Shown: positions 36,938 through 63,061 of the stretch, piece after piece
Layout: every line of letters begins with the position of its first letter
How positions within the stretch are numbered: position 1 is the first letter of the stretch
Origin: Owenia fusiformis
Lineage: Eukaryota; Annelida; Polychaeta; Sabellida; Oweniidae
Length of the DNA stretch: 64,000 bases
NCBI GenBank assembly: GCA_903813345.2
Contig: CAIIXF020000010.1
Span: forward strand, 25,692,425-25,756,424
Direction of reading: 5' to 3'
The notes under the pieces: model-generated
Told to the model about the DNA's origin: nothing
What the model saw: only the letters and a program-made list of their open reading frames with translations
Databases searched by the model: none
Position numbers and translations under genes: made by a program

Positions 36938-39900
36938 CTAATGGGTTGTGGCAAAACTAAGGCTGATGAGTGATGTCATTAAGATGACTGCAAGAGAGAC
37001 GGTGACGTGCATCCCAGCATTATCTCCCACCTCACCTGTTCCTGAAAAATAAAAAAAGAATATTTGAAATACGCCTGAAACAATCTTGACACTGCTATGA
37101 ATATAAATTAGGGAGTTTCATTTGAACTAACAGATCATACAGCAATGTTCACCCCATGCAGACAGATCACCTAAAATTACATTTGTATGATGCAAGACTC
37201 AACATTCTCCAGGAAACAGAAACATTTTGCCACCCATGAAGCAAATTTATTTTTTACTGCTTAATAAATGGTGAATGACAGTCACATTGAGTATGAGTAT
37301 GAGAATAGCACGATGTCTTGATATTTCAAAGTAACTCGTTTGAATAGTGATGGCAGTAATTGAAATTACGATGTTAAGATAAAACCGCAACGAAATATTT
37401 GTAGATTTGTAGACTAAGAAATAAAAACCTCATATCGAATTTTTTTAAACAGAAAAAAACATGTATAAATAGTAAAACCTGCAGGTCTGATTCCCCCTGG
37501 TAGCATTAACATTGGTCTCTTGCATGTCACACAATTAATATTTGAAACACAACTATGATTCAAACTTTTGATCAGACATACTAGTAAGTATGATGTGGAC
37601 TTAAAGGTTATAAAGTAATATCATACTAATGTCCGATCATAAGTTTGAATTAAAGTTGCATTTCAAATATTAATTGTATAACATATACGAGACCAATGTT
37701 AATGCTACCAGGGGGAATCGAACCTGCAGCCCTTACTATTTATACATGTTTTTTTCTGTTTCGGAAAATTTGACATGTGATGTATTTTTTAGTTTTTTAA
37801 AGAAATGTACAAATATTGCATTGCCGTTTTAAACTTTTCAAACGAGTAACCTTGAAATATCAAGACGTCATGCTATCATTCACCATTTATTAAGCATTTA
37901 AAATTAATCTGCTCCATGGGTGACAAATTATTTCAAGTTTCCTGGTCAATGCGGAGTATCGCATCATACGAATGTAATTTTACGCAATCTGTCTGCATGG
38001 GGTGATATGTTATGGTATAATATAAATGCACAAATCTATTTGCTATTTTTATGAGTCTTGTTCCAATCTTTGCATTTATCTGGCGAATGTACATATCAGT
38101 TTCTGTCTTCTGACTCCATTGCATGTAAACAGTATAAGGTATCTTATATTTCAAGCAAAATCTGTTAAACAATAAGCTAGAAATCAAGCTGCAAATTCAA
38201 ACATTTGTTCCAAGAAAAAATGCACTTTAAAATGTTAGTCCTAGTAATATTATTGGTACAGAACTATTGAGGTGATGCACTGTACTCCAACTAATATTTG
38301 ATGCCATTAAATTTTGTGATTTTGTAGCTATTAATTTTTGATACTTTTCCTTTCTTCAAAACTTTGTGGCTATATAAATTTTTTGTGGATCTGTAACTTT
38401 TCGAAAATCAACCTTTTGGTTTAATCTGATGTCAGTTTGTTAGGAAGTGTATTTTGATTGAAATGTCGAATAGAATGAATTGAAAAGGTACCTAACCTTT
38501 TATCGCCCCTCAATAGATAGAAATACAGTCAACACTGAGTGAAATGAATTCCCGGAAATTTTGCGAATACAATGTTTTGTGAATTTAAACTCTTGGAATT
38601 TCGTGGCTATTATATATCAAGAATATTCCCAAAATAGCGGAAAGTGCGAAATATAACAGCATGTGAAAATTACTGGGAGTACAGTATTCATTCCCATAAA
38701 GAAAAATTGAAATGTGTTCATTGGATTTAGTCTTTTTCAGAATACATAAGAATCTTAAGAAACTATAAATGCACAAACATGCCCATATTGTGTCCCATTT
38801 CCACTCACTAATATATTGCTTTATACTCAAATCATACCTGTTCCTTTCAGTACAGTTATTCTGGGAGTGTCTTTGAACTCTTCTCCAAATGAGTTGCTGA
38901 CCGTACATCGGAATTTTTTGTCTCCTGACATACCATTTAATGGAAGAGAAGCTTCAGTGCTTACTTGTCCTGTAAATTTATAATGTTAATGCCATACATT
39001 GAGAATTGACAAACACATATATTACATGTATTCATTTCAGAATAAAACAAAGTCAGGGGGTATAGAAATGAGTCCAGTATTTTCCTCTGGTACAAACCGA
39101 GATACTGGACGCAGACCTCCATTTTTGATCCAGAGAGAGGTAGTGTGATTTTGCTCAGTAGCCTGTGATCGTTTTACAGTGTTTCCTTATCTAGAAACAG
39201 GCTCATCAGATTCCCAGGACATTGAGGAACACACAATTCTTACAAGGCATTAACATGACAAAATGTCACCGCGTTGCTCACAATATTATATGAGTTCCCC
39301 AATCTTAGACAGATTTGAATTTCTTAGAACTTGTAGATGATTTTGAATAAATAAACGTCAATTTGAAGCAAGTTGTAAAAATACCTTTTTTGACCCTGAG
39401 AAGGTCATTGAAGGGGGAATCTCAAATCTAAAGTCAGATTTGAACTTCCGAGAACTTGTAGATGATTTGGAAAAAAAAGATTGGTCAATTTGAAGCAAGA
39501 TGAAAAATACCTTTGACTGAGAATGCCATTGAAGGTCAAATCTATAATCAGATTTGAACTGTTGAGAACTTGTAGATGATTTTGTAAAAAAGATTAGTCA
39601 ATAGTTGAAAAAATACCTTTTTGACCTTGGGAAGGTCATTGGAGGTCAAATCGAAAGTCAGATTTGAACTTCTGATAACTTGTAGATGATTTTGAAAAAA
39701 GAAATTGGTCAATTTGGAGCAAGTTGAAAAAAGACCTTTTTTACCTTTTTTGAGACGTGTTGATAACTTGTAGATGATTTTGTAAAAAAGATTGGTCAAT
39801 TTGAAGCAAGTTGAAAAAAGACCTTTTTGACCTTGGGAAGGTCACTGGAGGTCAAATCTAAAGTCAGATTTGAACTTCTGATAACTTGTAGATGATTTTG

Positions 39901-42900
39901 AAAAAAGAAATTGGTCAATTTGAAGCAAGTTGAAAAAAGACCTTTTTGACCTTGAGAAGATCAAATCACAAATCTTAAGTCAGATTTGAACTTCTGATAA
40001 CTTGTAAATGACTTTGAAAAAAAGAATTGGTCATTTTGAAGCACGTTGAAAAAAGTTCTTTTTGACCTTTTTTGACCTTTAGAAGGTCATTGAAGGTCAA
40101 ATCTCAAATCTAAAGTCAGATTTGAACTTCTGATAACTTGTAGATGATTTGAAAAAAAGAATTGGTCAATTTGAAGCAAGTTGAAAAAAGACTTGAAAAG
40201 GTCATTAAAGGTCAAATCTTAAATATAAAGTCAGATTTGAAAAAAATTGAAGTCAGTCTTAACAGTATTTGCTAACTTATTGGAAGTTGTAAGAATTCGT
40301 TACAGACGCTGATTGCCAACCGCCGGTCGCCAACCGCCATCCACCGTCAAAAAAACGGAGACCATAACAATATGTCACCAGATCGCCAACCACCATCTGC
40401 CTTCAAAAAAATAACAAAACCATAACGGAAAGGTCACTTTTTGGTGGTGACATAATAAAATGAGAGTAGATTTCTTTTTATTTACCATTTCATTGACAAG
40501 ATTGGCAATTTTCTTGTGTATGGAATAAGAATACAGCTTCCAGTCGCCAAATTTTAACTTCAAAATTATCAAAAATAGAAAAATTATGAAATTTAAAGAA
40601 GTACTGGGAGAAATGAAATTGTACTGGACGCAATTAGCCATCCGCTATTAACAGGCTTGTGTCCAGTACATTTTTCATTTCATCCAGTATTTCTAAAATT
40701 TCGTCATTTTTCTTTTATCGATCACTTTTAAGCTAAAAGGATGAGTCAGGGAATACCTTTTGGTCCCTCACTTAAATGTATTTGAAATATAGATTTTATT
40801 ACTGTCTAAGATGTATTTGATTTTAATATGCATCTTTTAGTGAGTATTGATGCTTATTTAACCTCTTGCTATGAATCAAATTAGGTAATAATCATTTTCA
40901 GAGCATAAACAATTAAGGTCAAGTTTCAAGTATATTATTCAGTCAGATAGTTTATGCAGACTCCTTTACCAAACTGCATTGCCAAAAATGGTTGATAAAA
41001 ATTGAGTAACATTTGAGTAGGATTTGTTGTGATAGTTATTGAGATACTATACTGTCATTGAAAGTTCCCACAAATATCAGTCATCTTCAGTTTCTGACTC
41101 TGAAGAGGAGGTGGCATGTCTCTGGCATCATATATATGATTCTTGGGATGGCTCCTCTTTTACAAGCATATCCCATCAATCAGGTGACTGGTGCAACATG
41201 GGCATCCAAAAACCATGGCACCCTGGGGACATGTACAGTATTAGTCAGTGATAGGCTCCAGATGGCGGTCACTGCCATGCTCCACTCAGAAATGATATTT
41301 CACACTTCCAGAGTGCTGTGATAATGTATACATGCACACAGACTCTGGGCATATTGGTGGGCCTAAAAGATGGTACTTGCCATCCTGCTATAAATGGTAA
41401 TGTAATTTTCTACTTAAGCTGATATAGCGTAAGGGTTGGTTAACACTTAACAGTCAACATAACAGTAAACAGTCATAACAGTTAATAGTCGACAGTAAAA
41501 AGTCATACAGTCATCATAACAGTAAAAAGTCATAACAGTTACAAGTCATCATAACAGCTGACAGTAGTCTTCATGAAAGCTAACAGTCATCATAACAGTA
41601 CAAGTCATGACAGTAAACAGTCATCATAACAGTAGAAGTCATAACACTTAACAGTCTTCATAACAGTAAATTTATGACAAATACAGAAGATTCCTTGATA
41701 GTGCTCTATAAGGTTTCCAAAGTATCGATTTACCATTTACTGTCCTATACTGCTCAAATGCAAGCTTTTTGATCATAGTGCACATGAAAAGTGTCTTGTC
41801 ATGATGAGGCAAATCCAAGATGGCCACCATTTAAATTACTACAATTTCACTTTAGTTTTGTTTTAAACATAGAGCAGTTTTATGGATTTTTATTTTTTAT
41901 TTTTTAGAATTTTTTCAAAGTCCAAACCCTGACCCATTCCCTGACTCATCCTTTGCAGATAGGAGGCTGTATTGTTAGTTCATACACAACAAAATTACAT
42001 ATCTTGTCAATGAAATGGTAAGAACTCAATTCGTATATTTCCTGAAAAAAAATCAAAATATTTCTGTGCTTAACCCCACATTACAGAAAAACTATGTAGC
42101 TGTCATTGTATAAGAATTGGATGTTCCCCAATGTACTGAATGAATCTGATGAGCCTGTTTTACACACTGTAAGACGATCACAGGTTACCGAGTAAAATTA
42201 CAATTACCTCTCTCTGGATCAAAAATGGAGATCTGCGTCCAGTATTTCCAGTTGTACAATGAAAATACTGTGTCCAGTATTTCCAGTTGTACAATGAAAA
42301 TACTGAACGCGTTTCTATCCCCTGAAAATGAAACTGAACTGTATGTTCTGCACATACTATGAATACTCATAACCTGAAAACACTGCTATACCAATGATAT
42401 GATTGTACAATAATGATATGACATTAAAAAATTAGACCAAGGTAATGAAATTAAGTAATGACAAAGGTGAAATGTTTTATTTAGACAAGTTCACTGTTGA
42501 CATGGTTCATTATTTAATCATCCTTTCTAAAATATTTCTGAGTGGCAAGTCTACACAATTAACAATTCATAGCTACATACCCATTGATTCCTCTGTCTCA
42601 ATGTTCAATTCCTCCCAGATGTAAGTGGGTTCAGGGTATCCCATTGCAGAGCAGTTGAGGATTTCTCCACTATAGAATTCTGTCTTTTGGCCACCAGACA
42701 TGTCAAATGGCATAATCTTTAATTGTTTAATTGCATCTAAAACCATTAAAACAAATTACTGTACTACTGCCCTATTCCATTCACTTTATTTTCCAACGCA
42801 TTCACAATTCAGTATATTCTTGAGCAGTAGTTCTGTATAAAAAACTCCTCCTTGGATTAGATTATCTAGTTACTGTATAGCAATGCTGATATACTTAAAT

Positions 42901-45900
42901 CTACACAATATTGTAGACATGACAAAATATGCGGTGTTTAAAGGTCCATGTGCAGTATGGCAAGTGATTTTAGACGGTCATATCTGTCACCATGAATACT
43001 TTCTGGGCATAAATACTGCAGTGGTTTGTATTAAAACAATATGTTTTCTTTCAAGTGAAGTCCCCATGATGATAAAAATATCAATCGAACAATTCAAAAA
43101 ATTATAAATAGGGAGCCCAGGTCAACAATTTTTTCAAAATGTTGGAACTTATTTGCTCAAAAGAGGATCTTCTTTTTCTCAGATAAGTAAAAAATACCGA
43201 CTTGGGCAAGGCTAATTTTTATTGCATGAAAACATTATTGAACAAGGCCTCAAAAGTAGGTATTGAAAGTCTAGTTTTGAAGATATCAATTTTTGATGAC
43301 CAAAATCATGCTGAAAACAATGGATAGCATGAGTTTTCCCTATGGGAAAATAACATGGGAAATGTGGTTTTTAACTTCATGGCATTTCAATACCCGGGAG
43401 GGGGGGGGGGGGGTATAGTGTGCGCTGCGTATATAATCATCTCAATTGAAAATTGTCTTAATTATATTACACAAGTTTTGTTGCCTATATAGCAGATAAA
43501 ACATCAATTTCTGTAGAAATATTGTGCCAAGTTTCGAAGTTCAATAATGAGTATGCAATGTATTGACGCCGATACTGATCTTTATTAGATAGACAAACTA
43601 GTCTAGTATCAAAGAATAAACGCATGAAACACAAGGTGAAACTAGACAACATAAGCAACACCAACATCGAACAACAATGGCTGGCATATTTACAAACAAA
43701 GTGTATAGCAAAAATGGCAGCCATTTTCAAAATGGCAACTTTCTACAAAACGTGTCATTGGACAGTGTGCCATGCTTATAGTATTCACATACCAAATATG
43801 AACAAAATCGCTCCACTACTATTGGAGTTATAGTAAAAAACATTAAAACGGCCATTTTAAAAAATGGCCGCCTTCTACCAAAAGTGTCATTAGACAGTGT
43901 GCCATGCTTATTGTATCACATAGCGCTGTGCTCTCCCTACATTGAACTTACTGAGGCGCCGCGCCTCCAAGCAATTGCAATCAAATAAATGCGCCTCAGG
44001 GTTATTCCTTGCGCCACTGACAAACCCTACACATTGTTTCTCCGCCTCAAAAGATTTAAAATAACACAATCTTACCGAAAAGTTGAAGTTTTGTTTGTTT
44101 TTAAATTTTCACTTATGCAGTGTTTTATCGAACGTATATTTCTTTGCTTCAATTACAGATTTACATGGAAGAAAAGCGAACGTTCGCTATTTTAGTTGAC
44201 CGATCGTAAATTCACGTCGTCCGTATATGCAGAACTTTATCGAACGTACATTTATTTGGTTCAATGACAGATTAACACGGAAGAAAATGAATTGTTCGCT
44301 ATTTCAAACGACCGAACACAAATTTGTGCCGTTCGCATTCACTCCTCTATTTTTCTCCCAGACTTACAATAACTTTTCTCCTTATTTCGATATATTTACT
44401 TGATTTTATCAGAAGAATGTCAGAAGCACACCGCTGGCAAGTTGTCTGGCACAACACAATCGAGCGTAAGTACTTTTTAAGTGAATCCGGTCGCCCGATT
44501 AACTAAAAATGGCCCTGTTAAATTTCAACAAAAAATATGCTTTTTTGCTGAATGGACGAAGCGGCAAATTTAAATTTTAAAAGTTTATTAACAAAAATAT
44601 AAACTTAGATTACTTTTTTCAAATATTTGATAAACAGGCATAATCAGTACGTATACAGGGGTGGATCTAGGAACCAACGAGGGGTTAAAACCAAAAAGTG
44701 GGCCCAAGTTTTGAAAATTTAAGGCCCATTTGCTTCAAAATTTGGCCTAAAATTAAAAAACAAGGCAAGTAATGCTCAAAAAGGCCCACTTTTTGGGCTT
44801 TTTGGCTGGTGGGCCCACCCAAGGGGGGGGGGGGGGGGTGTGGGCCCCCAGACACAAATAAAATGTTGCACTTTAGGAGTAAAAAATATTAAAATGTTGC
44901 ACTTTCAGAATAACAAAATCCCAAAATGTTGCAATTTTTTTTTACAAAATCCTCCCTACAAAAAAATCCTGGGGAGAGCACTGTAGCGTGTATATAAAAA
45001 TGCTCGAAATTTAAAAGATGAACGCATAATTTTGAACTCGCGTAATTTTCCACGTCTACAGTATACAATTTACATAAATATCCACCAAAATACAATACAT
45101 TGACATAAAGTACTCGTATGATACTTACAATTAATGACAAAGGGTGGTGAAGTTTCACACTCTTCTTTCACTTCCACACCACCAACATCAATTTCAAGCC
45201 TACAGAACATACTAACATCATTCCACATGGTGACAAAGTGTGCCTTACAGCTTTTCATTAACCCATTCATGGACTTGTTACAGGGTAGCTCTGTACCACC
45301 TTTATTGTACCACTTCAGTTCAAAATCTTGATCATCCGGGGATATCTGTGCCATGCAAGTCACTTCTCCCTTGCCTTGTTCTACCATCAGCCCATTGTTA
45401 TTTGGGCAGTCCATCTTGCCTTAAAGGAAATAGTCATGTCTAAATGCCTTGTGTGGGCTACATAATGGCCTTAAGTGCAGTCTAGGATTAAGCCCAGAAT
45501 CCCAAGATTTAAAACTTCTACATCCCAGAAAAACAAGTGAAGAAAACAATTTTTGAATGGTACATATACAAGCTCTTGAAAGACATTTATAGTTTTACCA
45601 TGAGACATAGATATCCCAAAAGTGAAACTGTATCATCACATGAAATAATCCCATCAGATTATAGCAAAAATGGTTCCAAATCTGTACAAAACTAAAACTA
45701 AAAATAGTACCATCGGTACTGGACTTACAGGGTGTAATTCTTTTGAATATTTGAAAGCCATCTTTTAACAGAGCTAAATTGAAAGTGTAACCTTTAAAAC
45801 AAGACTGGATGCAAGTAGAAGTCATCTTGATTTTCATCAAATATTTGTTAAAGTGATGTTATGTCATATTTGAAAGCTACCTGTAAAATTACATATAGAG

Positions 45901-46991
45901 ATGTGGTTTTAAAATTCTATACTTATCAATTGTCAAACTTTAACAGGTGAAGTTGTGGTGCTCCTTATATATTCTTAGTCAAAAGACACCAATAACCTAT
46001 CAATGACAATCCAATGGTCTGTGTACCTTTTGTAATACTTGAATTTCTTCAAAACAAAAACTGAAGTGAATAAAAATATTCCAAATCAATAAATTACCTA
46101 TGACAATTAGTTTTGCTGTTCTGTCAAAGGGTGCGGTGCCTCCCTTTGGATAAACTCGACATTGGTAAAGACCAGCATCCTCTGTTGTGACTTCCTTGAT
46201 CTGAAGATTGGCGTTTCCTGAAATGGTATATTTGGTTGGGTTAGAATTAACCCCAGTGCTACCAACATAAATGAACTCCTCCCCTTCCTTCCATGTGATG
46301 GTCCATCCTTGAGCCACCTGATCAGCAGTTAGGGTGCAAAGGAATGTAACTGAACTTCCAACTCTTACTGCAGTTGTTTGTGGTTCTTCCTCAAGTTGGG
46401 CACCTGAAAATATATAATTTTTTAGCCTAATAGTAATGATTGCACATTTAATATTAAAAGGACAAGCAGTATTTTTTAACGATTCAGGGAATCTTCCCAG
46501 GGATGCTAGTAACAACTTCTCTGGGAGCTTCTCTCAACACCATCAATTAATTCATTATTCATACACTTTTAGTGAACTGGGGTATGCCCTAATATAAAAA
46601 AATTTGATCAATCGGGTGTTATTTGGTGCAATCTGAGCGTTTAATTATTTTCTAATGGAAAAACAGTTTCTTTGAATTTTCATAGAAATCTTATCAAAAT
46701 AAATTTCCATGCACACCGAGTCAAAACTTGTTTAGGTCATGGGCAATGTTTAGGTGCACATATGTTCTGAAACCAATGAGAGAGTACATTTACATACTTG
46801 ATTGCTTAGTTTGAGATTTTATTACGAGAATATTGAAGTTTAGTACTTGAGGTACGACCTAGTAGGAGTGGCAATTTTTCATTCATGCAGTTATGATCGA
46901 ACGCATGATCGAAGAACGATCTTTCTTAGAGAAACTTTTACTTACCAACAACAGATATCAACACAGAGAAAAACAATATTTTGAAATCCAT
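36938..46991 (-). CDS. Three-Ig-domain cell-surface protein, probably GPI-anchored, 344 residues
   Basis: Six coding exons, all joined in phase 1 with GT-AG borders: 46991-46946, 46403-46098, 45419-45129, 42736-42581, 38969-38838 and 37041-36938. Exon 1 is a signal peptide, MDFKILFFSVLISVVG. Exon 2 (residues 16-117) is a V-type Ig domain: SSVTFLCTL, WTITWKEGEEF, EDAGLYQCRVYP. Exon 3 (118-214) is a C2-like domain with extra cysteines: KMDCPNNN, GEVTCMAQ, LKWYNKGG, SMFCRLEI, VKEECETSPPFV. Exons 4 and 5 (215-310) form the third domain: EILNCSAMGYPEP, TYIWEELN, KKFRCTVSNSFGEE. Exon 6 ends GMHVTVSLAVILMTSLISLS then FATTH and a stop. That is a small-residue site (DNAG) and a hydrophobic tail with no cytoplasmic part, as in GPI signals. 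The layout recalls nectin/CADM-type adhesion proteins; ligand and function are unknown. Confidence 0.87.
37150..38004. mobile_element. Palindromic foldback in the last intron, with a Pol III box B-like motif
   Basis: CACCCCATGCAGACAGAT at the left end is mirrored at 37987-38004. The arms stay paired through CATTTGTATGATGC, TGCTTAATAAATGGTGAATG, AAAAAAACATGTATAAATAG, CCCCCTGGTAGCATTAACAT and TTAATATTTGAAA. On the minus strand the right arm contains GCAGGTTCGATTCCCCC, which matches tRNA box B; the left arm has a decayed copy. This suggests two inverted tRNA-derived SINE-like units. Confidence 0.7.
39300..40240. repeat. About 115-bp tandem array with AGGTCA repeats
   Basis: About eight diverged units share AGTCAGATTTGAACTTCTGA, AACTTGTAGATGATTTTG, AATTGGTCAATTTGAAGCAA and TTTTTGACCTTGGGAAGGTC. 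Perfect AGGTCA-N4-AGGTCA sites lie at 39633-39648, 39839-39854, 40084-40099 and 40199-40214. The unit matches the interior of the MITE at 12793-13715. Confidence 0.88.
41450..41675. repeat. Degenerate tandem repeat AACAGTCATCATAACAGTAA
   Basis: Variants of CATAACAGT, with ACAGTCATC or AAAAGTC between them, recur about fifteen times within the foldback element. Confidence 0.75.
43700..43925. repeat. Diverged direct repeat in an intron
   Basis: AAAATGGCAACTTTCTACAA with GTGTCATTGGACAGTGTGCC and ATGCTTAT recurs at 43860-43915 as AAATGGCCGCCTTCTACC with GTGTCATTAGACAGTGTGCC and ATGCTTAT. It lies between exons 4 and 3 of the minus-strand Ig gene. Confidence 0.65.
46404..46945 (-). other. Intron 1 of the minus-strand Ig gene
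   Basis: The donor G/GTAAGT follows the signal-peptide exon and the acceptor TTTTCAG precedes GTGCCCAACTT. Both splice in phase 1. Nothing else is recognised within it. Confidence 0.8.
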
Positions 46992-47087
46992 TATTAGAAA
47001 TTTGCTGAATGCAAAAGTACTATTTCCTGGTGGAGTTATATGACTTATTTCAAAATCTAATATGTATCACAAATTAAAGGTACGGCT

Positions 47088-47100
47088 TATCTGATTGGTT
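47088..47100 (-). promoter_or_regulatory. CCAAT box upstream of the minus-strand Ig gene
   Basis: On the minus strand ACCAATCAGATAAG lies about 100 bp upstream of the ATG at 46991. The plus-strand paralogue has the similar GCCAATCAGAATAG about 150 bp upstream of its ATG. Both being promoter parts is inference. Confidence 0.4.
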
Positions 47101-48199: not shown

Positions 48200-50400
48200 A
48201 TTTGTTATTGTTATTTCCTTGTTCTTCCATTTAGACCAATGGTTTATGATTTATTAAATATTGCTTCAGTTTTGTCTTAAAGTGTGATACAGAATTGATT
48301 CGAAGTAAATCTCCAGGTACATCATTCCATATATCAGTGCCTTGTTTACATATCGAGAATTTTCCAATATCAGTTCTATACTTTGCTGGCCGAAGTTTAT
48401 ATTCTTGTATTGTGGAATGATCATGAATTTCATTACTAGTAGTAAAATAATATTTGAATTGCCTCTTACAGGGTTTGTTTACACCTTTAATGCATTTAAA
48501 AACATAAACAGCAATATTCATGTACACTATTTGAAATACATTCAGGATATTGGCTCTTTTGAAGTACGCCAAGAAAGTTTCCAACTATAGTTCTATCTAA
48601 AAGTGAGTTATTCATGTAGATTTTTATTTTTTCATGTTCAATTACTTTTTTGGAGACCTGAATAAGATATAATTTGTTTTTGTTGGATTCAATGCGAGTT
48701 TGTTGCACTTAAACCATTCATTAATTACAGAAAGTTCCTCATTTACTGTGGTATTGAGGTCATCAAGATTGTTACCAGAAAATAGTATATTTGTATCGTC
48801 TGCATATAGAAACATTTCTGCAGCCTCTGAAGATCTGTAAAGGTCATTTATATAAATAATAAACAAAAGAGGCCCTAGAATTGTTCCTTGTGGAACACCA
48901 CATGATAATTCAACAATATCAGATGTTTCCCCTTCAAATTGTACCACCTGGGATCTTTTTGAAAGATAACTTTGAAACCAATCGGAGGCAGTTCCCCGAA
49001 TACCATAATAATTTTTGCATCAATATATTGTGATTTAATGAATCAAAAGCTTTAGACAGGTCACACATTAATCCTATGGAATATTTGTGATCTTCTAAGG
49101 CAAGGCGTACTGATTCAACAAATTTTAAAACAGCCATGAATGTTGAGTGATCTTTCTTAAAACCATACTGATGTTCGTATAAGATGTTTTGTTTCTCTAA
49201 GAAATCAAGCAACCTGTGAGACTTACATTTTTCATAAATTTTAGAGAATACAGACAGAAGAGATACAGGTCGGTAATGTGTAAATATGTCATTGCGATCT
49301 TTTTTATGAATAGGAATGACTTTTGCAAATTTTAAATCATCTGGAAATATACCCTGCATAAATGACAGATTGATAATATAAGCAAGTGGTGAGCTTATCA
49401 GATGACTGTTTAATTTAATTACTTTTGGCTTGATATTATCTGAGCCGGCAGCAGAATCTGTCAATGAAGAAATTATTTTTAAGATTTCTTCATTATTTAC
49501 AGGTTGAAGGAAGATAGAACTAGCTACTTCTGGCATTTTACTTAAAAACTCCCGGGGAGTACTGTTTGAGGGCCCTATACTTGCTGCAGTATCTTTACCA
49601 ACATTAGAGAAAAATGAATTGAATCCATTAGCAATTTCCTTATTACCTTTAAAAGCTTTGCCATTTGTATAGAATGTAGAAGGCAATGGTTTGTAATTTA
49701 TTCTTTTCCTTTTAAGTATTTCATTTAAGATTTCCCACGTTTTTCTGATATTAGACGAGGCTTCAGTAAATTTCATTTGATAAAATCTTTTTTCAGCTAT
49801 TCTTAAGATGTGTTTTAAGCTATTTTTGTATTTCTTATACTTTTGTAAATTATCTGGTGTTGGGCTTTTTAAATAAATTGTATAAAGTTTATTTTTATTT
49901 CTACATGAGGTGATGATTGCGCTGGACAGCCATGGCTTACCATTATTTCCGATTGTTCTAACCTTTTTAACTTTTACTGGAAATGCCTTATCATATTCGT
50001 GTTGTATTATGTTAGAAAAGGTAGAATATGCTATGTTAGGGTCATGGCAATTATAAAGGTCTTGCCACTCAACATTGGTCATTTTATTGTTAAACTCCAT
50101 TAATGAGTTATCATTAATTGATCTATATTTGATCTGTTTGTTTGTTGTTGTCTTAAGCGTTTTTTCAGTCATTGCAAAAATTGGTAAGTGGTCTGTTGTA
50201 CAATCAATGATGATACCAGAAAGAGCTATGTTTGGAATATTGGTGAAAATATTGTCAATTAATGTAGCCGAGTGAGATGTGACACGGGTCGGTTTGAATA
50301 TCAAAGGAAAAAGATTGTAAGAGAATAATATATTTATAAAATTGTTAGTTGAATTATGCTGATCTGTTTTTAGTAAATCAATATTAGTATAGGGCAGAAT
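48200..50400 (-). mobile_element. 5'-truncated CR1/Jockey-type LINE
   Basis: On the minus strand the end of an AP endonuclease (SATLIDNIFTN) is followed by a linker and a reverse transcriptase (FAKVIPIHKKDRNDIFTHYR, GLMCDLSKAFDSLNH, SCGVPQGTILGPLLFIIYIN, FLYADDT). After that comes the C-terminal region (FKYYFTTSNEIHDHSTIQEY, GTDIWNDVP) ending at a stop near 48231. The 3' tail has AAATAACAATAACAAA, like short tandem tails of such LINEs. At least three frameshifts occur (near 49005, 48655 and 48585), and most of the endonuclease and any ORF1 are missing, so it is dead. It lies between the two divergent Ig genes. Confidence 0.9.
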
Positions 50401-51209: not shown

Positions 51210-51223
51210 GCCAATCAGAATAG
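51210..51223 (+). promoter_or_regulatory. CCAAT box upstream of the plus-strand Ig gene
   Basis: GCCAATCAGAATAG lies about 150 bp upstream of the ATG at 51365. The near-palindrome TTGATTGCAAATCAA follows at about 51245. No clear TATA box is seen. Confidence 0.4.
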
Positions 51224-51364: not shown

Positions 51365-54300
51365 ATGGATTTTAAACTAATGATACTTTTTGTAACAGGT
51401 GAGTGATTCCAGAATATGTCAAACTGCATTATATTCCCGATTATATCACTGATCTGAAACAGCTAACGAAATCGCCGGTGGATTATCCATAAATGTGACC
51501 TTCGAATATTACAATGTTCTCCTTAGCTGTGTTCATGTAACTGAATATTTTATGTGTTTTTCCGTCAATCAAATTTAGAAAATAAGATTTTCAGGCTAGA
51601 TCTAATGAATTTACCTTTCAGGATTTAGTAAACACTCGTATGTGGAAGCCCAAATGTTCTGACTTGCTCAAATGTTCTGGCAACCCCAAGTTCACTTACT
51701 ACAGTCAAATTTTTTATTCTGTCAATCAGTTCATATGGTTAGAATAAGGAAAGAATGTGATGTAACCACGTGTCTACTTACTAGCTTGTTCTATGTCATC
51801 CATCGGACTAGGTTACATCGTGGAACGCAGCCAAACACGACAATGAAGCCAGTATTCTGAGGTTATAAAATCTAAATCTAAATAATTTCCCATTTGCAGC
51901 CCCTTGGAGATTTCCGGAATTGAACAAAGTAGCGAACGTTCCGATCTTTCAACTTTAGTTCGTTGTTTTTTCACCACCTTATGTGTACTGTTTTCATTTA
52001 GGAGGCGGTCTTATTTGAATGCATCATTACAGGTCTTTATGAATCAATAGATCAATAAACAGCTCTAAAAATACAATTTAGCAGTTTCTTTCATTGCGTA
52101 CTGCGCATGTTAGGCACGAAAACAATTTAGCAGTTTCGTTCGTTGCGTAATTGGGCCTTCTATAATCAGTAGCAAATGCTCGGAAAACATTTTCAAAAAT
52201 ATTTACTTCCGATTTCCTTGAAGACATGATTGGGTGACACGTCATTGACACGTGATTAAGTCACATGATCGATACAGTAACTAGTCACGTGATCAGACAT
52301 GTGTCACGTGTCAGTCACGTGAGCTTGCAAAATGGACGATCTAAATTTCCAAAAATTCGGCTAAGATCAAGATAGATATGCGGTTGCCTTCAGCGTCCTG
52401 TTCGGCTGCGTTCCACGATGTAACCTAGTCCGATGGATGACATAGAACAAGCCGGTAAGTAGACACGTGGTTACATCACATTCTTTCCTTATTCTAACCA
52501 TATGAACTGATTGACAGAATAAAAAATTTGATTGTATATTATCATATCTATTTTATCACTATCTAGAATTCACGAGTTCACTTATTTTATCATATCTATT
52601 TTATCATATCTAGAATTCACAAGTTCACTTATTTTATCATATCATGGGCGTAGCGTTGCAAATTCGCTCAAAATACAACCAAATTTCAAAATTTTCATGG
52701 GGGAGAACCCCCAGACCCCCCTGAATGATCGTTTTTTGATTCTTGACTCTTGTTCCTGTGTTGGTGGCGTGCTACTTAAAAAATAGCGCTACGCTCATGC
52801 ATATCTATTTTATCATATCTAGAATTCACAAGTTCACTTATTTTATCATATCTATTTTATCATATCTAGAATTCACAAGTTCACTTATTTTATCATATCT
52901 AGAATTCACAAGAGAGGGTTCAAAAAATGACTTTTGAAAGTTAAACCCAATTTTTAGAAATATCGGACTCAGTTTTTAAAAGACAAGTCTACTTTTCCCG
53001 CAATTGAAATTGAGACCCAGCCGTAAATATAATACTCTATCTAAATACTCTATTGCTCTTGAGTGTTCAATGGTGTAAAGGTCGAACACCCATCCTGGGG
53101 ATTTGACACTCATCAATGGGTACTTTGTTACTTTGTATAAATAATTGGAAAGCCTTTTGTGGATGAAGAAGTCATATTATAAGCTTAATTTAGCTTAATT
53201 TCAACAGTCATCTCTAAAAAAAAACTGAAATTAAAAATGGAAATCACCATATCAAGTATATTTAATAAATATGTCAAATGTTCCCTACTTCTCCATACTT
53301 ATACTAGTATGTATCCAACAGACCGAATATAATATTCGGTCTGTTATGATTGATATATTTCCTGTGGAAATCGCGGTGATATTTTTTGCACATTAATTTC
53401 TCATTTATTATAAGAATGTTCACCTTGAAAATTGGTGAATATGTTGAAGAGATGTTCATCTTAAACTAGAAGCAAAAATATTTTTGTATAAGGCGGGTAC
53501 AAGTTGATATAAAATAATGAAATGTTCAGACTCACCGAAACTTCAGGATGTGTTCATAAGTAGATCTCGAAATCAATGTCAAGGACGTTTGAGTTCACGA
53601 GATCCAAACGAGATATGCAAATTTTGAACTTTGACAACACATGACCACTTGATTACCTCGGCCTTCTTCATGAATATTTCCGCTCTATTTACTATAAATG
53701 AAGAAAATTAATTGGGATAATGATAATAAATGACTAGATCTAATAAATTCCCGCACAAATGGAATTTAGCAATACGCTTCTGTAATGTTGCTCCCGCTCC
53801 ACGTGTTATTTGTTTACAAATAGACTGACGTCACTGGCTAAATCTCGTTTATCGTGAGAATTGGCATTGCCAAAATGGCTTGACCAAATCAATGGCTTCG
53901 CTACAAGAAGCGTCTGTACATTTTATGAATATCTTCAGTAAGAGGACAATATACGAAAAAATAATATTGTGAGTTCTTTATAAGGTAATCATTTTAGCAT
54001 TAAACAAACTTATTTGTAACATTTATACAACACCACATTTTACAATAGGTGACTTACAGTCTGAATATTTATTCAGACGAAGGATACAGTCTAATACTTA
54101 TACCATTCGCAAAAGTCTGTATGCTATCATTTGATGTGAAAGTCAGTCTATCCCCATGCATGGGGATCAAACCCACGGCCACTCATTTTCTTCTATATAA
54201 CAACTGGTCAGACTGACTTTTCTACATCAACATTGCATATTATATAGGTTTGCAAACATAGATATCTCATATTATGTGAATTATTATTACTTTCAGTTGG

Positions 54301-57300
54301 CTATGTGTGTGCCGGCAATATAGATATTGCACCAGCTGATACGATAGCGAAGACTGGAGAAGATACTGAACTCATGTGCCAAATAGCTGAAGCTGCAATT
54401 GACTCTGAATTTGTTTCCTGGTTTGAGTACATTACTGATAGTAATGGAAAAAGAGTGTTTGTATCTAATAAACCAAATGATATCATAGACCCTGACAAAT
54501 ATGAGGTAGATTTGAACAAGAAGTATAACATCAAGATAAAGGGTGTTACTATTGGTGATGCGGGAAAATATGGATGCCAGACTTTTACTGATGGTAATAA
54601 CTACGCTGCATACCTGACAGTTTATGGTAAGTTCATGTAATCATAACATACACTGTAGTTCATGTCTAAATAACAATCTTTAATTACCCATTTTTATTGC
54701 ATCCTTTGGGTGCTATATTGTGATCAGTTTGTTAAGCTTTGTATCTCATTCTAATGAAAGAACCTATGATCAAATTTTTCATTGTTTTATACTTTTAAAA
54801 TATAAAGTCTTCCATTGTACTATATACAGAAGCGTCTCACCTCATTTAAAAATGGCAGCCATTTTTAATGCCAAAACATGTACTTTCACCATTTGAGTCC
54901 AGTACCCTTGGTACTATTTATTTATTGTTCTACTGCTGTGTATATTGTTCATTATAAGACTAAGGTTTGACACTTCGAATCTAGGATGTGTTGCGATAAA
55001 TCAATAGTAAATAAAGTGTTAACTCTATATTTAAGTTCAGGTCCAGGAATTGTTTTGTAATATTTATATAATATTTCTTGCAGATACTCCATCTTGTGGT
55101 AACACCAATGGTGATAATGTCAAAGAAGGGGATGAGGTTACATTTGAATGTCAGATGAACTATGCAGGTGATGCTAAGCCAACTCTGAAATGGTATCGCA
55201 ACCAGGAAGAAATGGAAGATGTTGTCTTCACAACTGAAGAGAATAAGCCTGCTATGGCAACTGTTAAATTCACTGTCACCCCCGAAGATAACGGTGCTGC
55301 TCTGACATGTAGAGTAAGCAGTAGCAGTGAGCCTGACTTTGCCGGTGATGAGTGCACTAGCTCACCTGTTTTAGCAGTGAAATGTAAGTATTCTCTTTGT
55401 TGAAATACACCTTAAACCACAAGTCAGGAGAAATGGCTGAAAGAAGTACTGGACATTGGGCCAGCCCTTCCCCCTTATAATTGGGGCTCAAAATTTGTAT
55501 TCCCACAAAAACTGAGAACAGAAGAAATAATGAACATTACTGGGCATTATTTTTTAATTTTGAATGTGGACCTTTGGTTTCAAAACTGTCCCATTTATGT
55601 GCCTAAAATTTTCCCACCTAATTAAAATGGAATTTAAGTACTTTACTTACCAAATGCATGAATATTATTGTTCATACTTAATTATATTTTTCTCAAGATC
55701 AAGCTTTTCTAGATCAAAATTTCCTGATCCTGTCACCTGTTTAAATGACTTTGGAAATGGATTTCTGGACTTATGCTTGCATTTGGTATAGTAGTTTTCT
55801 GATGAGCTTGTGAGATAGTGCCAGTTAAGGGTGTTTAAAACTGAGAATCATTCAAGTTTACTATTCTAAATTATCGTATATCATAGGTCTGTGTTACACT
55901 GATAAAAACAGGTAATCATTGAATCTCAATTTATGATTCCCATATAGTTACCCTTATGTATCTGATAGTTATACAAAAACATATCTGCTCTATGCAAGAA
56001 AAGATATTTCACTTTTTGTGGTGATTTTATAATATGAGGTCTGTGGGAAATCTCCCCAATCTAGAAGTTATTTTTTACAAGAAAATCAAATTTTCAAACC
56101 ATCATATGTTATTTCACAGTAGATTTCAAATATGATACAGGGGTTTCATTGGCAACAGGTAATTTTCACTGATTGTTTCACAAAATCGCCTGTTTTTAGG
56201 GACTTTTCAATTTTACCATGTTAAAGGACAAGGTGCAATTATTGGCAAATATCCCTATGGTCAAAATGAATCATTCTTAGGTGTAACATGAAGAATAAAA
56301 TGTCATATAATACTTTGGAAAATATTAAAGTGCTCGGACACACATAAGCTGAGATAGGGATCATTTCGTTCAGTAAGGTTGTATTGACTTATATGGGGCT
56401 GTGCACCATTGACTTAACATGAGGATATCAGCAGATCCCAATAAAGGCCATTGGTTTCCATTGATTATTACAGAAATACCAAAAATACACTATGACCTGA
56501 ATCGATTGCAAACTTAATAATTTCACAATACGACACAAATGGTTTATCTCATCAAATGTGCAAATATGAAGTTTGCAATCGATTCAGGTCATACTTAAAA
56601 TTAAAAGATTGTACATTTTTTCATCATTTTTTCCCTACAAAATGGCTATAGAAAAATGCTCCAAAACAACTTTTACACTTATCAATTATCATACAAGTTT
56701 GTAAAACCAAAGATTATACTATTATATTTCATTATGTAGTAACATATTTGGATAAGATGCAGGGATACGTAGGATGTAAATGGATTTTGACAGACACAAA
56801 AATACTTTCTGGTTTGGAATCTATGCCTCTACACTTCATGATTGAATTATGACCCTAATAAGTGGCCTATACATCAATACAGTGCTGAATATAGGTCAAC
56901 AAGATACTAGTGTGCATATAAATGTAATAATTGAAGCAGAATACTCATTTTGAAAAATCAGATGAATTATTTTTTTCCCATGGGGAGATCCCAATGGAGG
57001 GTGTATAAGGTCCTTTATGATTTCCATTAATTTTGCCTGTTTTGAGAAATTCTAGTGATGATATCACTTTGACTAAACTGCGAATTTTGAATGACGTAAT
57101 TCTAAATCAAGGTTATTTCTACTCTACTTGCATCGAGGCTATTTACATGTATATTTTTTGTTTTTTATTTTTATTAGCTCTAAAACATGTCAGTCTCTCC
57201 GACATATAGGTCACTTTACATTTTATGTGTTTTTGTATCATACAAGTAAACACCACAGTCAACAGATGTATAAAAGTATAAAAATAGTTTCATTGTACAA

Positions 57301-60300
57301 TAGACTTCCAAAAATTGCTACATAATGTACATACTATGGTACAAAATGGATAAATGTTAAACTCATGAAAATGGCTACAAAATATACACACTGTGGTGCA
57401 AACTAGTTAAATGTTCTTTTTTTGTCACACTCAGAACTTGGCAAGATCTTTTACTATTTAAATTTTGCTATTCATGTTTAGTTTTATAAAAATGTTGGAT
57501 ATATCACTAATTAAGAGAACTTGAACTTGTGTATGAAAATATTGCTCTTTGGCTTGAATAGGCAGGCAGAGGTAAATATTAAATGCAATTCGTCTTCAAT
57601 CTGGTTCAGGCTACGTTTTAAGCAGTCTGTCAACTAATTGTATTTTTCTAGGAAAACTTGCTCCAAATTCAAATCTTACATAATTTTACATGTAGATGTT
57701 GAATAAATTTTGAATATTTGGTTATTAAAATTCAGTTTACATATACTTGCATCTAGTTTTTTGACTAAAAATGTCTGTACTAAATTTTTTCCCTTGTTGA
57801 GAATATGACTGGCAAAGCCTTCAAAAAACCATTAGGTCATGTCTGTAATACTCTTCTAAGTCTACTCTTCTACCAGCTTTCCATATCTAACCATTATTCA
57901 TTATAGGTCTGATGATTTATAATTCCCTACTTGGTTATTATTAGAATATTATGATGATTGCTATTAGCTTCTTTCTGTCATTTTTCATTATTAATTATGA
58001 GAATTGCAATAATACAGTTCATATTCAAACATATATAAACTAAACTAACTAGGAACTAATAAATAACTTTGTAATGCCTGAAAATACTCTGTATTCAACC
58101 AAAATAGAGTTATATACATGTTTAATGTCAAATAGATGACTGTTGATGATATGTTCTCTTTTCCTTACAGTATTTCTGTGTGCCTTCTGTAACCCTAATA
58201 ATAAGTGACCAGTAAGGCCAGAAAACTAGCTTGCTTCTTAAATACTTGATATTTATCCAACTTGATAAGATAACTATTAATCTAAATCTTCGTATCTGTA
58301 AATAACATTCGTATAAAATTGGCAACTTTTTATGTCAAGTATTATAATCAGCTTTTCTATACCCTTTGCATTTGTTCGACTTCCATCTCTCCTCCACTGT
58401 CTATTTTATGGCTGTCATTGCTATAGTCTTCCATCTCTCCTCCACTGTCTATTTTATGGCTGCCATTGCTATAAAGTCTTCCATCTCTCCTCCACTGTCT
58501 ATTTTATGGCTGCCATTGCTATAAAGTCTTCCATCTCTCCTCCACTGTCTATTTTATGGCTGTCATTGCTATAAAGTCTTCCATCTCTCCTCCACTGTCT
58601 ATTTTATGGCTGTCATTGCTATAAAGTCTTCCATCTCTCCTCCACTGTCTATTTTATGGCTGCCATTGGTATAAAGTCTTCCATCTCTCCTCCACTGTCT
58701 ATTTTATGGCTGTCATTGCTATAAAGTCTTCCATCTCTCCTCCACTGTCTATTTTATGGCTGCCATTGCTATAAAGTCTTCCATCTCTCCTCCACTGTCT
58801 ATTTTATGGCTGCCATTGCTATAAAGTCTTCCATCTCTCCTCCACTGTCTATTTTATGGCTGCCATTGCTATAAAGTCTTCCATCTCTCCTCCACTGTCT
58901 ATTTTATGGCTGCCATTGCTATAAAGTCTTCCATCTCTCCTCCACTGTCTATTTTATGGCTGTCATTGCTATAAAGTCTTCCATCTCTCCTCCACTGTCT
59001 ATTTTATGGCTGTCATTGCTATAAAGTCTTCCATCTCTCCTCCACTGTCTATTTTATGGCTGCCATTGGTATAAAGTCTTCCATCTCTCCTCCACTGTCT
59101 ATTTTATGGCTGTCATTGCTATAAAGTCTTCCATCTCTCCTCCACTGTCTATTTTATGGCTGTCATTGCTATAAAGTCTTCCATCTCTCCTCCACTGTCT
59201 ATTTTATGGCTGCCATTGGTATAAAGTCTTCCATCTCTCCTCCACTGTCTATTTTATGGCTGTCATTGCTATAAAGTCTTCCATCTCTCCTCCACTGTCT
59301 ATTTTATGGCTGTCATTGCTATAAAGTCTTCCATCTCTCCTCCACTGTCTATTTTATGGCTGCCATTGGTATAAAGTCTTCCATCTCTCCTCCACTGTCT
59401 ATTTTATGGCTGCCATTGCTATAAAGTCTTCTATCTCTCCTCCACTGTCTATTTTATGGCTGCCATTGCTATAAAGTCTTCCATCTCTCCTCCACTGTCT
59501 ATTTTATGGCTCTCATTGCTATGAAGTCTTCTATCTCTCCTCCACTGTCTATTTTATGGCTGTCATTGCTATAAAGTCTTCTATCTCTCCTCCACTGTCT
59601 ATTTTATGACTGTCATTGCTATAAAGTCTTCCATCTCTCCTCCACTGTCTATTTTATGGCTGCCATTGGTATAAAGTCTTCCATCTCTCCTCCACTGTCT
59701 ATTTTATGGCTGTCATTGCTATAAAGTCTTCCATCTCTCCTCCACTGTCTATTTTATGGCTGCCATTGCTATAAAGTCTTCCATCTCTCCTCCACTGTCT
59801 ATTTTATGGCTGCCATTGCTATAAAGTCTTCCATCTCTCCTCCACTGTCTATTTTATGGCTGCCATTGCTATAAAGTCTTCCATCTCTCCTCCACTGTCT
59901 ATTTTATGGCTGCCATTGCTATAAAGTCTTCCATCTCTCCTCCACTGTCTATTTTATGGCTGTCATTGCTATAAAGTCTTCCATCTCTCCTCCACTGTCT
60001 ATTTTATGGCTGTCATTGCTATAAAGTCTTCCATCTCTCCTCCACTGTCTATTTTATGGCTGCCATTGGTATAAAGTCTTCCATCTCTCCTCCACTGTCT
60101 ATTTTATGGCTGTCATTGCTATAAAGTCTTCCATCTCTCCTCCACTGTCTATTTTATGGCTGTCATTGCTATAAAGTCTTCCATCTCTCCTCCACTGTCT
60201 ATTTTATGGCTGCCATTGGTATAAAGTCTTCCATCTCTCCTCCACTGTCTATTTTATGGCTGTCATTGCTATAAAGTCTTCCATCTCTCCTCCACTGTCT

Positions 60301-63061
60301 ATTTTATGGCTGTCATTGCTATAAAGTCTTCCATCTCTCCTCCACTGTCTATTTTATGGCTGCCATTGGTATAAAGTCTTCCATCTCTCCTCCACTGTCT
60401 ATTTTATGGCTGCCATTGCTATAAAGTCTTCTATCTCTCCTCCACTGTCTATTTTATGGCTGCCATTGCTATAAAGTCTTCTATCTCTCCTCCACTGTCT
60501 ATTTTATGGCTGCCATTGCTATAAAGTCTTCCATCTCTCCTCCACTGTCTATTTTATGGCTCTCATTGCTATGAAGTCTTCTATCTCTCCTCCACTGTCT
60601 ATTTTATGGCTGTCATTGCTATAAAGTCTTCTATCTCTCCTCCACTGTCTATTTTATGACTGTCATTGCTATAAAGTCTTCCATCTCTCCTCCACTGTCT
60701 ATTTTATGGCTGCCATTGGTATAAAGTCTTCCATCTCTCCTCCACTGTCTATTTTATGGCTGCCATTGCTATAAAGTCTTCCATCTCTCCTCCACTGTCT
60801 ATTTTATGGCTGCCATTGCTATAAAGTCTTCCATCTCTCCTCCACTGTCTATTTTATGGCTGTCATTGCTATAAAGTCTTCCATCTCTCCTCCACTGTCT
60901 ATTTTATGGCTGCCATTGCTATGAAGTCTTCCATCTCTCCTCCACTGTCTATTTTATGGCTCTCATTGCTATGAAGTCTTCTATCTCTCCTCCACTGTCT
61001 ATTTTATGGCTGTCATTGCTATAAAGTCTTCTATCTCTCCTCCACTGTCTATTCTGTCTATTTTATGGCTGTCATTGCTATAAAGTCTTCCATCTCTCCT
61101 CCACTGTCTATTTTATGGCTGCCATTGCTATAAAGTCTTCTATCTCTCCTCCACTGTCTATTTTATGGCGGTCATTTGACTCTCTCTTATTTAGGGTATG
61201 GCCATTCAGAATAATCTTATCTGAAATAACTCATGAATTATCTGCACAAGTCCTAAATAAGTAATAAACAATAAATAAAAAGTATGTGGTATGTTTTATT
61301 TTCTAATTCAAAGTGAAGTTCATATACAATTTAATATGTAGAAGTTTCATTCACAGATAATAGCTATATATGAATAGAGCATAATGTATTTTATGCTATG
61401 TTCCTCAGTATTCTGTAAGCCTAGTTGAGGCATTGTGTTGAGCATAATGTATGTAATTTCACTCAAGCTAAATCTCACTGAGGAGTGGTCCAGATCGATA
61501 CAAACCAGCCTCTATTAGATAATGCTATATTGGCATCTATACTATCTTGCTTTGTTTAGTAACAACCCTGATTTTATTGTCAAATGTTGATATTGGTTTG
61601 TTAGGTGAGACTGCATGCTATCTCAATACATATGCTGAATTATATCTCCCTATATCTGCCTTTTAAGAATTCTCCTTGTTAGTTACAATTTCTCAATTCC
61701 CTCTCTTAATGTTGGGCAAAACCTTACATTTTGAACTCTCAAAGGCCAAGCAGAATTATGTCTACTTTACTTGGTATTCTGTCAAATCACTTGTCAGTCT
61801 GAACATTACATATTCAGGCAGAAGTAATGTCTCATTTCTACATCCATCCATATAATTTTTGAATATCCCTTCCAAACTATGTTTGATGGGATAATAATAT
61901 ACCTTGTTAGAACATTGTTAGGGATGAAGTTATCAATTTTAATGAGGGTTTGATGAACTTACAAATGTGTTATTATAATGGCAAGAGGGAAATAATTATA
62001 AATCACTCAATACATCTGTCTATTAATTGATAATTATTAGATAATTTAGAACAACATGTTATATAACTACTATGCAATGGTGAGAGGATGTCCCTCATGT
62101 TTATAAGCAAACTTTATAGAATTTGTTAACATTACAGTATCGTGTTTTTATTATATTATCTAACAATAGCAATCATCATATGTTACATTAATAAAGAGGA
62201 CCCCTTCCAAAATTTTCAGTCCTATTTAGCAAGATATTGTCAAATTTCTCCTGTGTTTATCATTTTCTAAGTTCAGTGGTTTACTGATACCAACGTGAAC
62301 AACGTGGCAGAGAAGCTATTAGTACTTGAGAATAGTCTATTCGAATAGACCATCTAAATGGACAATGTAAATGGCCATCTGGAGAGATGTAATCATATCA
62401 TTCACCTTAGACTCATTAATTATTAATTATTGAGCAGGGATGTGTAACTGACATATTATAATAGCTAATAATGTATTGTGTTACGTTTATTTCCTCTATA
62501 TATTACTTAATAACTTTTGATATATAAGCATTGTTGGAGAGATTCCTTAATTTCCATACATTGCTCAAGCTCTTGGTACAGTTGGGGCATTATAATTCTT
62601 CCGCATTTATGTATATATGATTGGGTTATGCATACTACCAATAGCCTTAATACTTTAACCCATTTCACTGTTGTAATGTAATGCTACATCTTAGTTATCA
62701 CTTAAACATTTTTAGAGAGAATTGTATTGTTTAAAAGCTGCTTCTCATGAAAATCACTTGATTCCTGTGTTTTCAGACATGCCACGTAATGTTCAGGCAA
62801 CTAGCCTTGATGATTCTCAAGCAAATGTCCTTAGCATTGGACAAAAGATTGTAGCAACAGCTGATGCCAACCCTGTCGCTGGTTTTAACTGGGAAATCTT
62901 GCCTGCTGGAGAGAACAAGACACTCATCACATCATCTGGAGCTGAAGTGAATGTCACAGAGGAGATGGTCGGTGAAAGCACATGGACTCTGAAAGTACAA
63001 AATGACGTAAACACCCCTGATGATATTGTTGTAAAGACATACACTGTAACAGTCAACTCAG
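51365..63061 (+). CDS. Ig-domain cell-surface protein, paralogue of the minus-strand gene, 3' end outside window
   Basis: Four exons joined in phase 1: 51365-51398, 54297-54626, 55084-55383 and 62777-63061, the last with donor G/GTATGT, so the gene continues. The joined protein starts MDFKLMILFVTVGYVCA, a signal peptide split by intron 1. Residues 18-121 form a V-type domain (DTELMCQIAEA, EFVSWFEYI, GDAGKYGCQTF). Residues 122-221 form a C2-like domain with flanking extra cysteines (TPSCGNTN, VTFECQMNY, LKWYRNQEE, ALTCRVSSS, DECTSSPV). Residues 222-316 form a third Ig-like domain (ADANPVAGFNWEI, ESTWTLKVQNDV) in one exon without the canonical cysteine pair. Start, phases and domain order match the divergent gene at 46991-36938. 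Intron 3 (55384-62776) holds the 50-bp minisatellite. The anchor type cannot be seen. Function is unknown; recognition or adhesion is inferred. Confidence 0.85.
51706..52535. mobile_element. Inverted-repeat element (about 830 bp) in intron 1 of the plus-strand Ig gene
   Basis: The ends CAAATTTTTTATTCTGTCAA are mirrored and stay nearly identical for about 130 bp (through GGTTACATCGTGGAACGCAG). High arm identity suggests a fairly recent insertion. The interior carries four CACGTG boxes. Confidence 0.82.
52249..52321 (+). promoter_or_regulatory. Cluster of four CACGTG E-boxes
   Basis: CACGTG occurs at 52249-52254, 52286-52291, 52305-52310 and 52316-52321; three read TCACGTG. They lie in the interior of the intron-1 element. 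Confidence 0.55.
52540..52915. repeat. Tandem repeat TATCTAGAATTCACAAGTTC, interrupted by a small insertion
   Basis: Units of TTTTATCATATCTATTTTAT then CATATCTAGAATTCACAAG recur four times. At 52643-52799 they are split by a 157-bp insertion whose ends mirror each other (CATGGGCGTAGCG and CGCTACGCTCATG). Confidence 0.75.
53317..53345. repeat. Perfect palindrome, 14-bp arms
   Basis: AACAGACCGAATAT, one A, then ATATTCGGTCTGTT. It could form a small cruciform or be a dimeric factor site; no known motif is assigned. Confidence 0.75.
54050..54240 (-). mobile_element. Possible tRNA-derived SINE
   Basis: On the minus strand GTGGGTTTGATCCCCATGCA resembles a tRNA box B (GGTTTGATCCC). It is preceded by GTCAGTCTGACCAG and followed by a unique body ending in CGTCTGAATAAATATTCAGA. 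Box A is not convincing. It lies just before exon 2 of the plus-strand Ig gene. Confidence 0.35.
56491..56593. repeat. Perfect 25-bp inverted repeat in intron 3
   Basis: TATGACCTGAATCGATTGCA plus AACTT (56491-56515) is exactly mirrored at 56569-56593, with a 53-base loop. No other structure is seen in 55384-58370. Confidence 0.85.
58380..61176. repeat. 50-bp minisatellite, about 56 units, with higher-order structure
   Basis: The unit is GTCTTCCATCTCTCCTCCAC then TGTCTATTTTATGGCTGCCA then TTGCTATAAA. Variants are TGCC/TGTC/TCTC, TTGCT/TTGGT, CCATC/CTATC and ATAAAG/ATGAAG. A three-unit pattern (TGTC-GCT, TGTC-GCT, TGCC-GGT) repeats every 150 bp in two stretches. A larger copy of about 1.0 kb is shown by matching rare variants (TCTCATTGCTATGAAG at 59511 and 60561; TTTTATGACTGTC at 59602 and 60652). 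The unit is not a multiple of three, so no long frame exists. It lies in intron 3 of the plus-strand Ig gene. Confidence 0.95.
61177..62776. other. Remainder of intron 3, no feature recognised
   Basis: AT-rich sequence without recognisable repeats or exons. A TTTTCAG acceptor at its end opens exon 4 of the plus-strand Ig gene. Confidence 0.5.

Follow-up and report, generated by a model that had tools for sequence, protein, structure and literature searches.

Two genes that face away from each other in the Owenia genome raise the question of whether they are a local pair of duplicated immunoglobulin (Ig) genes in a recognition or allorecognition locus, as the original prediction proposed, or members of something wider. 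We analysed a 64,000-nucleotide stretch of DNA containing both genes (the window), together with matches in the same assembly. Our preferred reading, to which we assign a probability of roughly 0.56, is that both belong, as old members, to a multi-copy Ig surface-receptor family specific to this lineage, which would serve recognition or adhesion and has spread partly by retroposition.

The genes form a divergent, head-to-head pair, with gene A on the minus strand (46991 to 36938; 6 exons, 344 aa through the stop) and gene B on the plus strand (51365 to 63061; 4 exons, 316 aa, 3' end open). Every intron of both chains has GT-AG borders and phase 1. The window contains the MDFK codons, ATGGATTTYAAR, in two places, one at each gene start (46991 on the minus and 51365 on the plus strand). 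Both proteins exceed the Pfam cut-offs for V-set, I-set and Ig_3 and have the order V, C2-like, third Ig domain; the V-set matches (E-values in Table 1) score above the curated cut-off, and a first domain of V-set type with a Cys-Trp-Cys core places A and B in the Ig superfamily. These three columns are invariant in 18 of 18 hand-chosen V-domain rows. The second domain (D2) is framed by extra cysteines in both genes. The common start exon, the phase-1 borders, the domain order and the framing cysteines had all been read from the sequence beforehand, and each was borne out.

Table 1. Positions of the features of genes A and B in the window.
Feature	Position	Strand	Description
CCAATCAGA box, gene A	47090..47098	-	107 bp before ATG
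Gene A exon 1	46946..46991	-	Start codon and signal peptide (MDFKILFFSVLISVVG); ATG, donor GTAAGT, phase 1
Gene A exon 2	46098..46403	-	D1, V-set Ig domain (E 2.7e-11); closest relatives are two tandem V exons at C12:13.504 Mb
Gene A exon 3	45129..45419	-	D2, C2-like, framing cysteines; 3' part in C11 processed copy
Gene A exon 4	42581..42736	-	D3, first half; fused to exons 3 and 5 in C11 copy
Gene A exon 5	38838..38969	-	D3, second half; fused to exons 4 and 6 in C11 copy
Gene A exon 6	36938..37041	-	GPI-type tail (GTGEVGDNAGMHVTVSLAVILMTSLISLSFATTH) and stop; tail identical in C11 copy
Gene A 3'UTR	36578..36937	-	Extent given by the reach of the C11 match
CCAATCAGA box, gene B	51211..51219	+	154 bp before ATG
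Gene B exon 1	51365..51398	+	Start codon; signal peptide begins (MDFKLMILFVT)
Gene B exon 2	54297..54626	+	Remaining signal peptide and D1, V-set Ig domain (E 5.5e-10)
Gene B exon 3	55084..55383	+	D2, C2-like Ig domain, framing cysteines
Gene B exon 4	62777..63061	+	D3, Ig-like, without the usual cysteine pair; predicted splice

A comparison of the two proteins gave 27 of 96 identical residues in D1 (28%; z = 8.4 over shuffles), 29 of 92 in D2 (32%; z = 7.1) and 19 of 88 in D3 (22%; z = 3.2), the weakest of the three. The earlier description of A and B as old, diverged members of one Ig family is supported. D3 is split by an intron in gene A, occupies one exon in gene B and forms one open frame at C10:29.16 Mb. 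The predicted CCAATCAGA box, a putative CCAAT/NF-Y element, does stand near both starts. The window holds six copies of it against 0.70 expected, a number that none of 100 shuffles reached; four of the six lie away from the two gene starts, so the shared box alone is weak evidence.

Several other features were noted in the same window. Between the two gene starts, minus-strand frames resembling a LINE reverse transcriptase (RT) were seen by eye (48642-50406). Two long plus-strand frames of 695 and 785 aa at 7066-12093 look like the gag-protease-RT and RT-integrase parts of a Gypsy-type retroelement (by eye), and a GC-rich tandem repeat with a unit of about 199 bp is present in 4.6 copies at 19080-20048.

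The predicted exon chain of gene A can be compared with an intronless, 5'-truncated copy at C11:4681613-4682212. This copy comprises exons 3-6 and about 360 nt past the stop, with 895 of 962 nucleotides identical; counted along the 1035-nt coding part of gene A and on into the sequence after it, the match ends at position 1395. Three of the five predicted introns are crossed by the copy, each at its borders; the joins of exons 1-2-3, and with them the first two introns, lie outside it. Introns absent, exons fused at their borders and a location at another locus identify it as a retrocopy, which is damaged by one in-frame stop. There is no poly-A tail at the match end (one run of nine A lies about 650 nt beyond the stop) and no target-site duplication, the longest repeat between upstream and downstream sequence being 11 nt. 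Its source may have been a close relative of gene A; the joins still match the predicted chain. At its C-terminus, gene A has small residues and after them a hydrophobic stretch, the pattern of a GPI signal. Inspection by eye and hydropathy uphold the GPI-type tail claimed originally, and suggest that the product would be GPI anchored. An inverted repeat in the last intron of gene A (37480-37740, by eye) may be a mobile element.

Gene B can be followed in the same way through its first three exons, which share 43-46% identity with intronless genes on C5 and C6. Both exon 2 and exon 3 are spanned by four intronless relatives, in three of which the match starts within exon 1; no copy spans the join of exons 3 and 4. 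Part of the gene B chain may be wrong, with exon 4 unused or belonging to another gene and B ending after D2. We regard this as rather improbable. It is favoured by the four nearest intronless relatives, which have V and D2 only before their end, by the position of exon 4, 7.4 kb downstream, and by the search for an anchor exon beyond it: none was found in 20.6 kb downstream, where hydropathy scans of AG-started frames listed 2 and 18 frames, none convincing, and tblastn with nine family tails gave a best E of 0.03, on the opposite strand and with a stop inside. Against it, exon 4 is in phase, is open over a whole domain and can be aligned with D3 of the gene at C10:29.16 Mb (E = 2.9e-10 when six sequences were compared with no correction for composition). 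In the alignment, D3 of gene B has neither of the usual Ig cysteines. The third intron of gene B contains a 50-bp minisatellite of about 56 copies with 96% matches (58380-61176).

The kinship of A and B was assessed in trees of hand-chosen V domains, one with 26 domains and a second with 23, from which the long-branch rows C10_28.696, iL_C3 and C12_27.393 were left out; V exons outside both trees include those at C12:35.73, 35.77 and 27.37 Mb and C5:4.21 Mb. The AU test rejects A and B as sister genes or products of a local duplication (p = 0.0019 with 26 domains; p = 4.4e-9 with 23). Instead, the V domain of gene A clusters with a tandem pair of V exons at C12:13.504 Mb (support 91/68 in the 26-domain and 100/100 in the 23-domain tree), and that of gene B groups with the four intronless C5/C6 genes (92/85 and 88/86). 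Because A and B are rejected as a clade and their nearest kin lie elsewhere, they are a head-to-head pair of distant relatives. The 23-domain set does not reject a clade uniting both genes with the two C12 V exons (p = 0.22). Support is weak at 14 of 23 inner branches in the 26-domain tree, where long branches are present and may meet, and at 11 of 20 in the 23-domain tree; both are poorly resolved within clusters.

The nearest other family matches on C10 lie about 2.9 Mb from the pair. Family profiles run on the window plus 9.9 kb downstream recovered the known exons and one chance-level match (E = 0.33), and tblastn on 63001-83676 returned gene B's own exon and one match at E = 0.81. With sisterhood rejected and the next C10 matches so distant, the notion of a local paralogous pair or cluster is not supported. 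Paralogues elsewhere in the genome were found, on several contigs.

The V exon of gene A is about 88% identical in DNA to the two C12 V exons (dS 0.26 and 0.36; dN 0.11 and 0.09; dN/dS about 0.42 and 0.25). The match begins 9 bp before the exon and ends inside it, and the flanks yield nothing better than one match of 20 nt (E = 0.015), beside weaker ones. A V exon so alike on two chromosomes could be the result of exon copying, of conversion, or of slow exon change next to fast intron change. The locus at C12:13.50 Mb (L002 1509-2820) contains a third copy besides the two tandem V exons; it has a 41-nt match at its start, then a Thr/Ser-rich frame and, further on, a frame resembling a transmembrane (TM) segment.

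Searches of the same assembly brought out further matches to the family. Gene A had at least 18 matches, gene B at least 26, a cluster V exon at least 29, L013 at least 37, L006 at least 13 and the C10:29.16 Mb gene at least 22; these counts are lower bounds that include the queries and come from overlapping sets. Among the matches to the cluster V exon, 15 (its own exon included) are at least 52% identical and span the greater part of the exon, and a sixteenth above 52% is a 31-residue piece. The shared architecture is V, C2 and often a third Ig domain, carried by multi-exon genes, which form clusters on C10 and C12, as well as by seven intronless open genes. V-exon clusters are located at C10 (28.7-29.2 Mb) and C12 (27.0-27.6, 31.4 and 35.7 Mb), and other matches on C3-C7, C11, C12, C181 and C419, those on C7 being weak. 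At C10:29.16 Mb, open frames for V, D2, D3 and a TM segment follow in sequence (by eye). The framing cysteines of D2 are present in nine of nine aligned copies (L008 and L009 lie outside the alignment); the usual first Ig cysteine of D2 is missing at C10:29.126 Mb and shifted in gene A. Our scan of the relatives' V exons sought phase-1 borders only and used 14 of 16 loci (L047 and L026 were dropped), so it demonstrates that such borders exist and is no independent test of phase. C181 and C419 are high-numbered, apparently small contigs, and their family members may represent unmerged haplotypes or missing parts of clusters. A tyrosinase-like frame was seen by eye just 3' of a V-C2-TM family gene (L050 4971-5555). 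Near the multi-exon genes, a tyrosine motif gave 6 sense and 4 antisense matches, a balance on which we base no claim; the L050 candidate is located past the tyrosinase-like frame.

The seven intronless open genes (L006, L008, L009, L010, L011, L012 and L013; 248-525 aa) align across the domain junctions of the family without introns. Four, on C5 and C6, have V and D2; in the three on C3, C4 and C181, V and D2 are followed by D3, a TM segment and a tail. A single clade of six intronless V domains is rejected (p = 3e-6; iL_C3, the seventh, was omitted because of its long branch), and therefore the intronless genes probably have two or more origins. None shows nine consecutive A in the next 1.2 kb downstream (or as far as the locus extends) or a clear target-site duplication, so the case for retroposition, by which we suggest they arose, rests on their missing introns. 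The same two absences would also fit a lineage that was intronless from the outset, or import of the genes by a virus. We hold this to be very improbable, since the intronless genes occupy two tree positions among multi-exon relatives, and an IMG/VR scan with two of the seven as queries, which detects close relatives only, returned no viral relative. Their short flanks showed no virus-like frame by eye, though a frame of 330 aa does lie beside L010.

The ends of the intronless genes differ. TM segments and tails are present in L010, L011, L012 and L013, hydrophobic C-terminal stretches in L008 and L009, and no clear TM or GPI end was found in L006. Three of the four TM-type tails carry a YxxL/V motif. 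The ITIM consensus of cytoplasmic tails is [I/V/L/S]xYxx[L/V/I]. VLYADL (L013) and IRYSAV (L010) fit it, FIYADL (L012) nearly so, and L011 has none; per tail, the strict motif arises in 4-7% of shuffles.

What known proteins does this family resemble? Comparison with solved structures covered PDB chains. The best match was DCC for gene A (2.6e-9) and CADM4 for gene B (5e-11), with neurotrimin (6e-8) and, over D1-D2, weaker matches to SIRP-alpha (6e-5) and CD22 (3e-4) also for gene B; Robo1 was likewise among the best. As these are general Ig relatives only, no named family was assigned. Single exons were folded, because the window holds no contiguous translation of a spliced protein. By itself, D3 of gene B reached a pLDDT of 48.5 and was set aside. 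A model of D2 of B with D2 of A (pLDDT 67.1) matched general Ig folds in Foldseek, Necl-4 among them and none at E <= 0.001.

On this evidence, A and B might belong to a lineage-level expansion of ordinary proteins for cell adhesion or neuronal wiring (IgLON/DIP/lachesin or nectin/CADM type), an alternative that we take seriously and yet judge unlikely. Three Ig domains with a GPI-type or TM end, best PDB matches among adhesion and guidance molecules, and the Necl-4 match of the D2 model all speak for it. CADM and nectin-like proteins have the order V, C2, Ig, which the ectodomains here fit, and then a TM segment and a conserved cytoplasmic motif. Gene A has a GPI-type tail and no TM-plus-tail end, the search past gene B's last exon found no anchor, and the D2 fold match has 25-26% identity. 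The PDB matches do not look like those of an orthologue, being weak and confined to part of the protein (aa 86-225 with CADM4, aa 51-104 with DCC). Moreover, we know of no extra D2 cysteine pair or scattered intronless copies, as found here, in either group. The Wirin group (IgLON, DIP/Dpr, lachesin) likewise consists of small Ig proteins, with three Ig domains in IgLON and DIP. Dprs and DIPs are GPI anchored according to the published account, as gene A may be. Among PDB chains, the best full-length match does not fall within this group, neurotrimin being a weak match, and TM segments with cytoplasmic tails occur in four of the intronless relatives here. SIRP and CD22, vertebrate ITIM receptors with a V-C2 ectodomain, share with the family the weak D1-D2 matches and an ITIM-like tail motif in two relatives, with a near-fit in a third; this likeness need not mean orthology, and gene A differs by its GPI-type tail.

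A further alternative, and the role originally suggested, is an allorecognition locus in which polymorphic V domains discriminate self from non-self. Ig allorecognition genes have a V-like first domain, several Ig domains, a surface anchor and many copies, as in the Alr genes of Hydractinia and Podocoryna, and the family has the same shape. Dispersal alone does not exclude such a role, as the Podocoryna report describes 22 putative ALRs in one complex and some on other chromosomes (PMC13119343). No complex surrounds the A/B pair, however: most members of an Alr-type set would be expected in one histocompatibility complex, but the window pair is isolated, and the family, known here from the genes of one assembly, is spread over many contigs. 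Selection points the same way. The C5/C6 intronless genes have dN/dS of 0.25-0.32 at dS 0.48-1.43 in 6 of 6 pairs, and one V subfamily 0.07-0.25 in 6 of 6 pairs. In the other V subfamily (45 pairs), dN/dS is 0.24-0.54 in the 7 pairs with dS <1, the remaining 38 having dS >1 or infinite. Gene A against its damaged C11 copy gives 0.57. No pair with finite dS has dN/dS >1, although pairwise averages from one assembly can mask single diversifying sites. Owenia is also a solitary tube worm, with no obvious colony fusion to control. Allorecognition is unsupported for this family, and we consider it very improbable.

We return to the reading of A and B as members of a multi-copy family of recognition or adhesion receptors. 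In its most likely mode of action, the N-terminal V domain would bind a ligand on another cell or on a microbe. Signalling would fall to those TM members whose tails carry YxxL/V, and GPI-type members such as gene A would act as ligands, decoys or co-receptors; immune use of the family is conceivable. What the sequences show directly is the family's anatomy, its kinship, one processed copy and constraint. The family would have grown by tandem duplication in the C10 and C12 clusters and by retroposition of mRNAs, which would have given rise to one damaged gene A copy and the seven intronless open genes. A broader idea, which we put forward tentatively and consider doubtful, is that this lineage-specific repertoire of invertebrate Ig receptors was seeded repeatedly by retroposition: spliced mRNAs would have landed at new sites, some staying open and constrained with differing anchors (GPI-type, or TM with an ITIM-like tail), so that inhibitory receptors and tethered ones arose as pairs away from the parent clusters.

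Large Ig receptor families outside the vertebrates are familiar from a few animals. No paper in the library searched combined Owenia, the immunoglobulin domain and a gene family. The set described here is notable for its conserved anatomy and its clusters, for a V exon that two chromosomes carry in nearly the same form, and for open members that lack introns alongside a damaged processed copy. If expressed, the family could be used to ask whether immune-type receptor repertoires are built by retroposition, and whether an animal of this kind evolved signalling tails with YxxL/V that pair with GPI forms.
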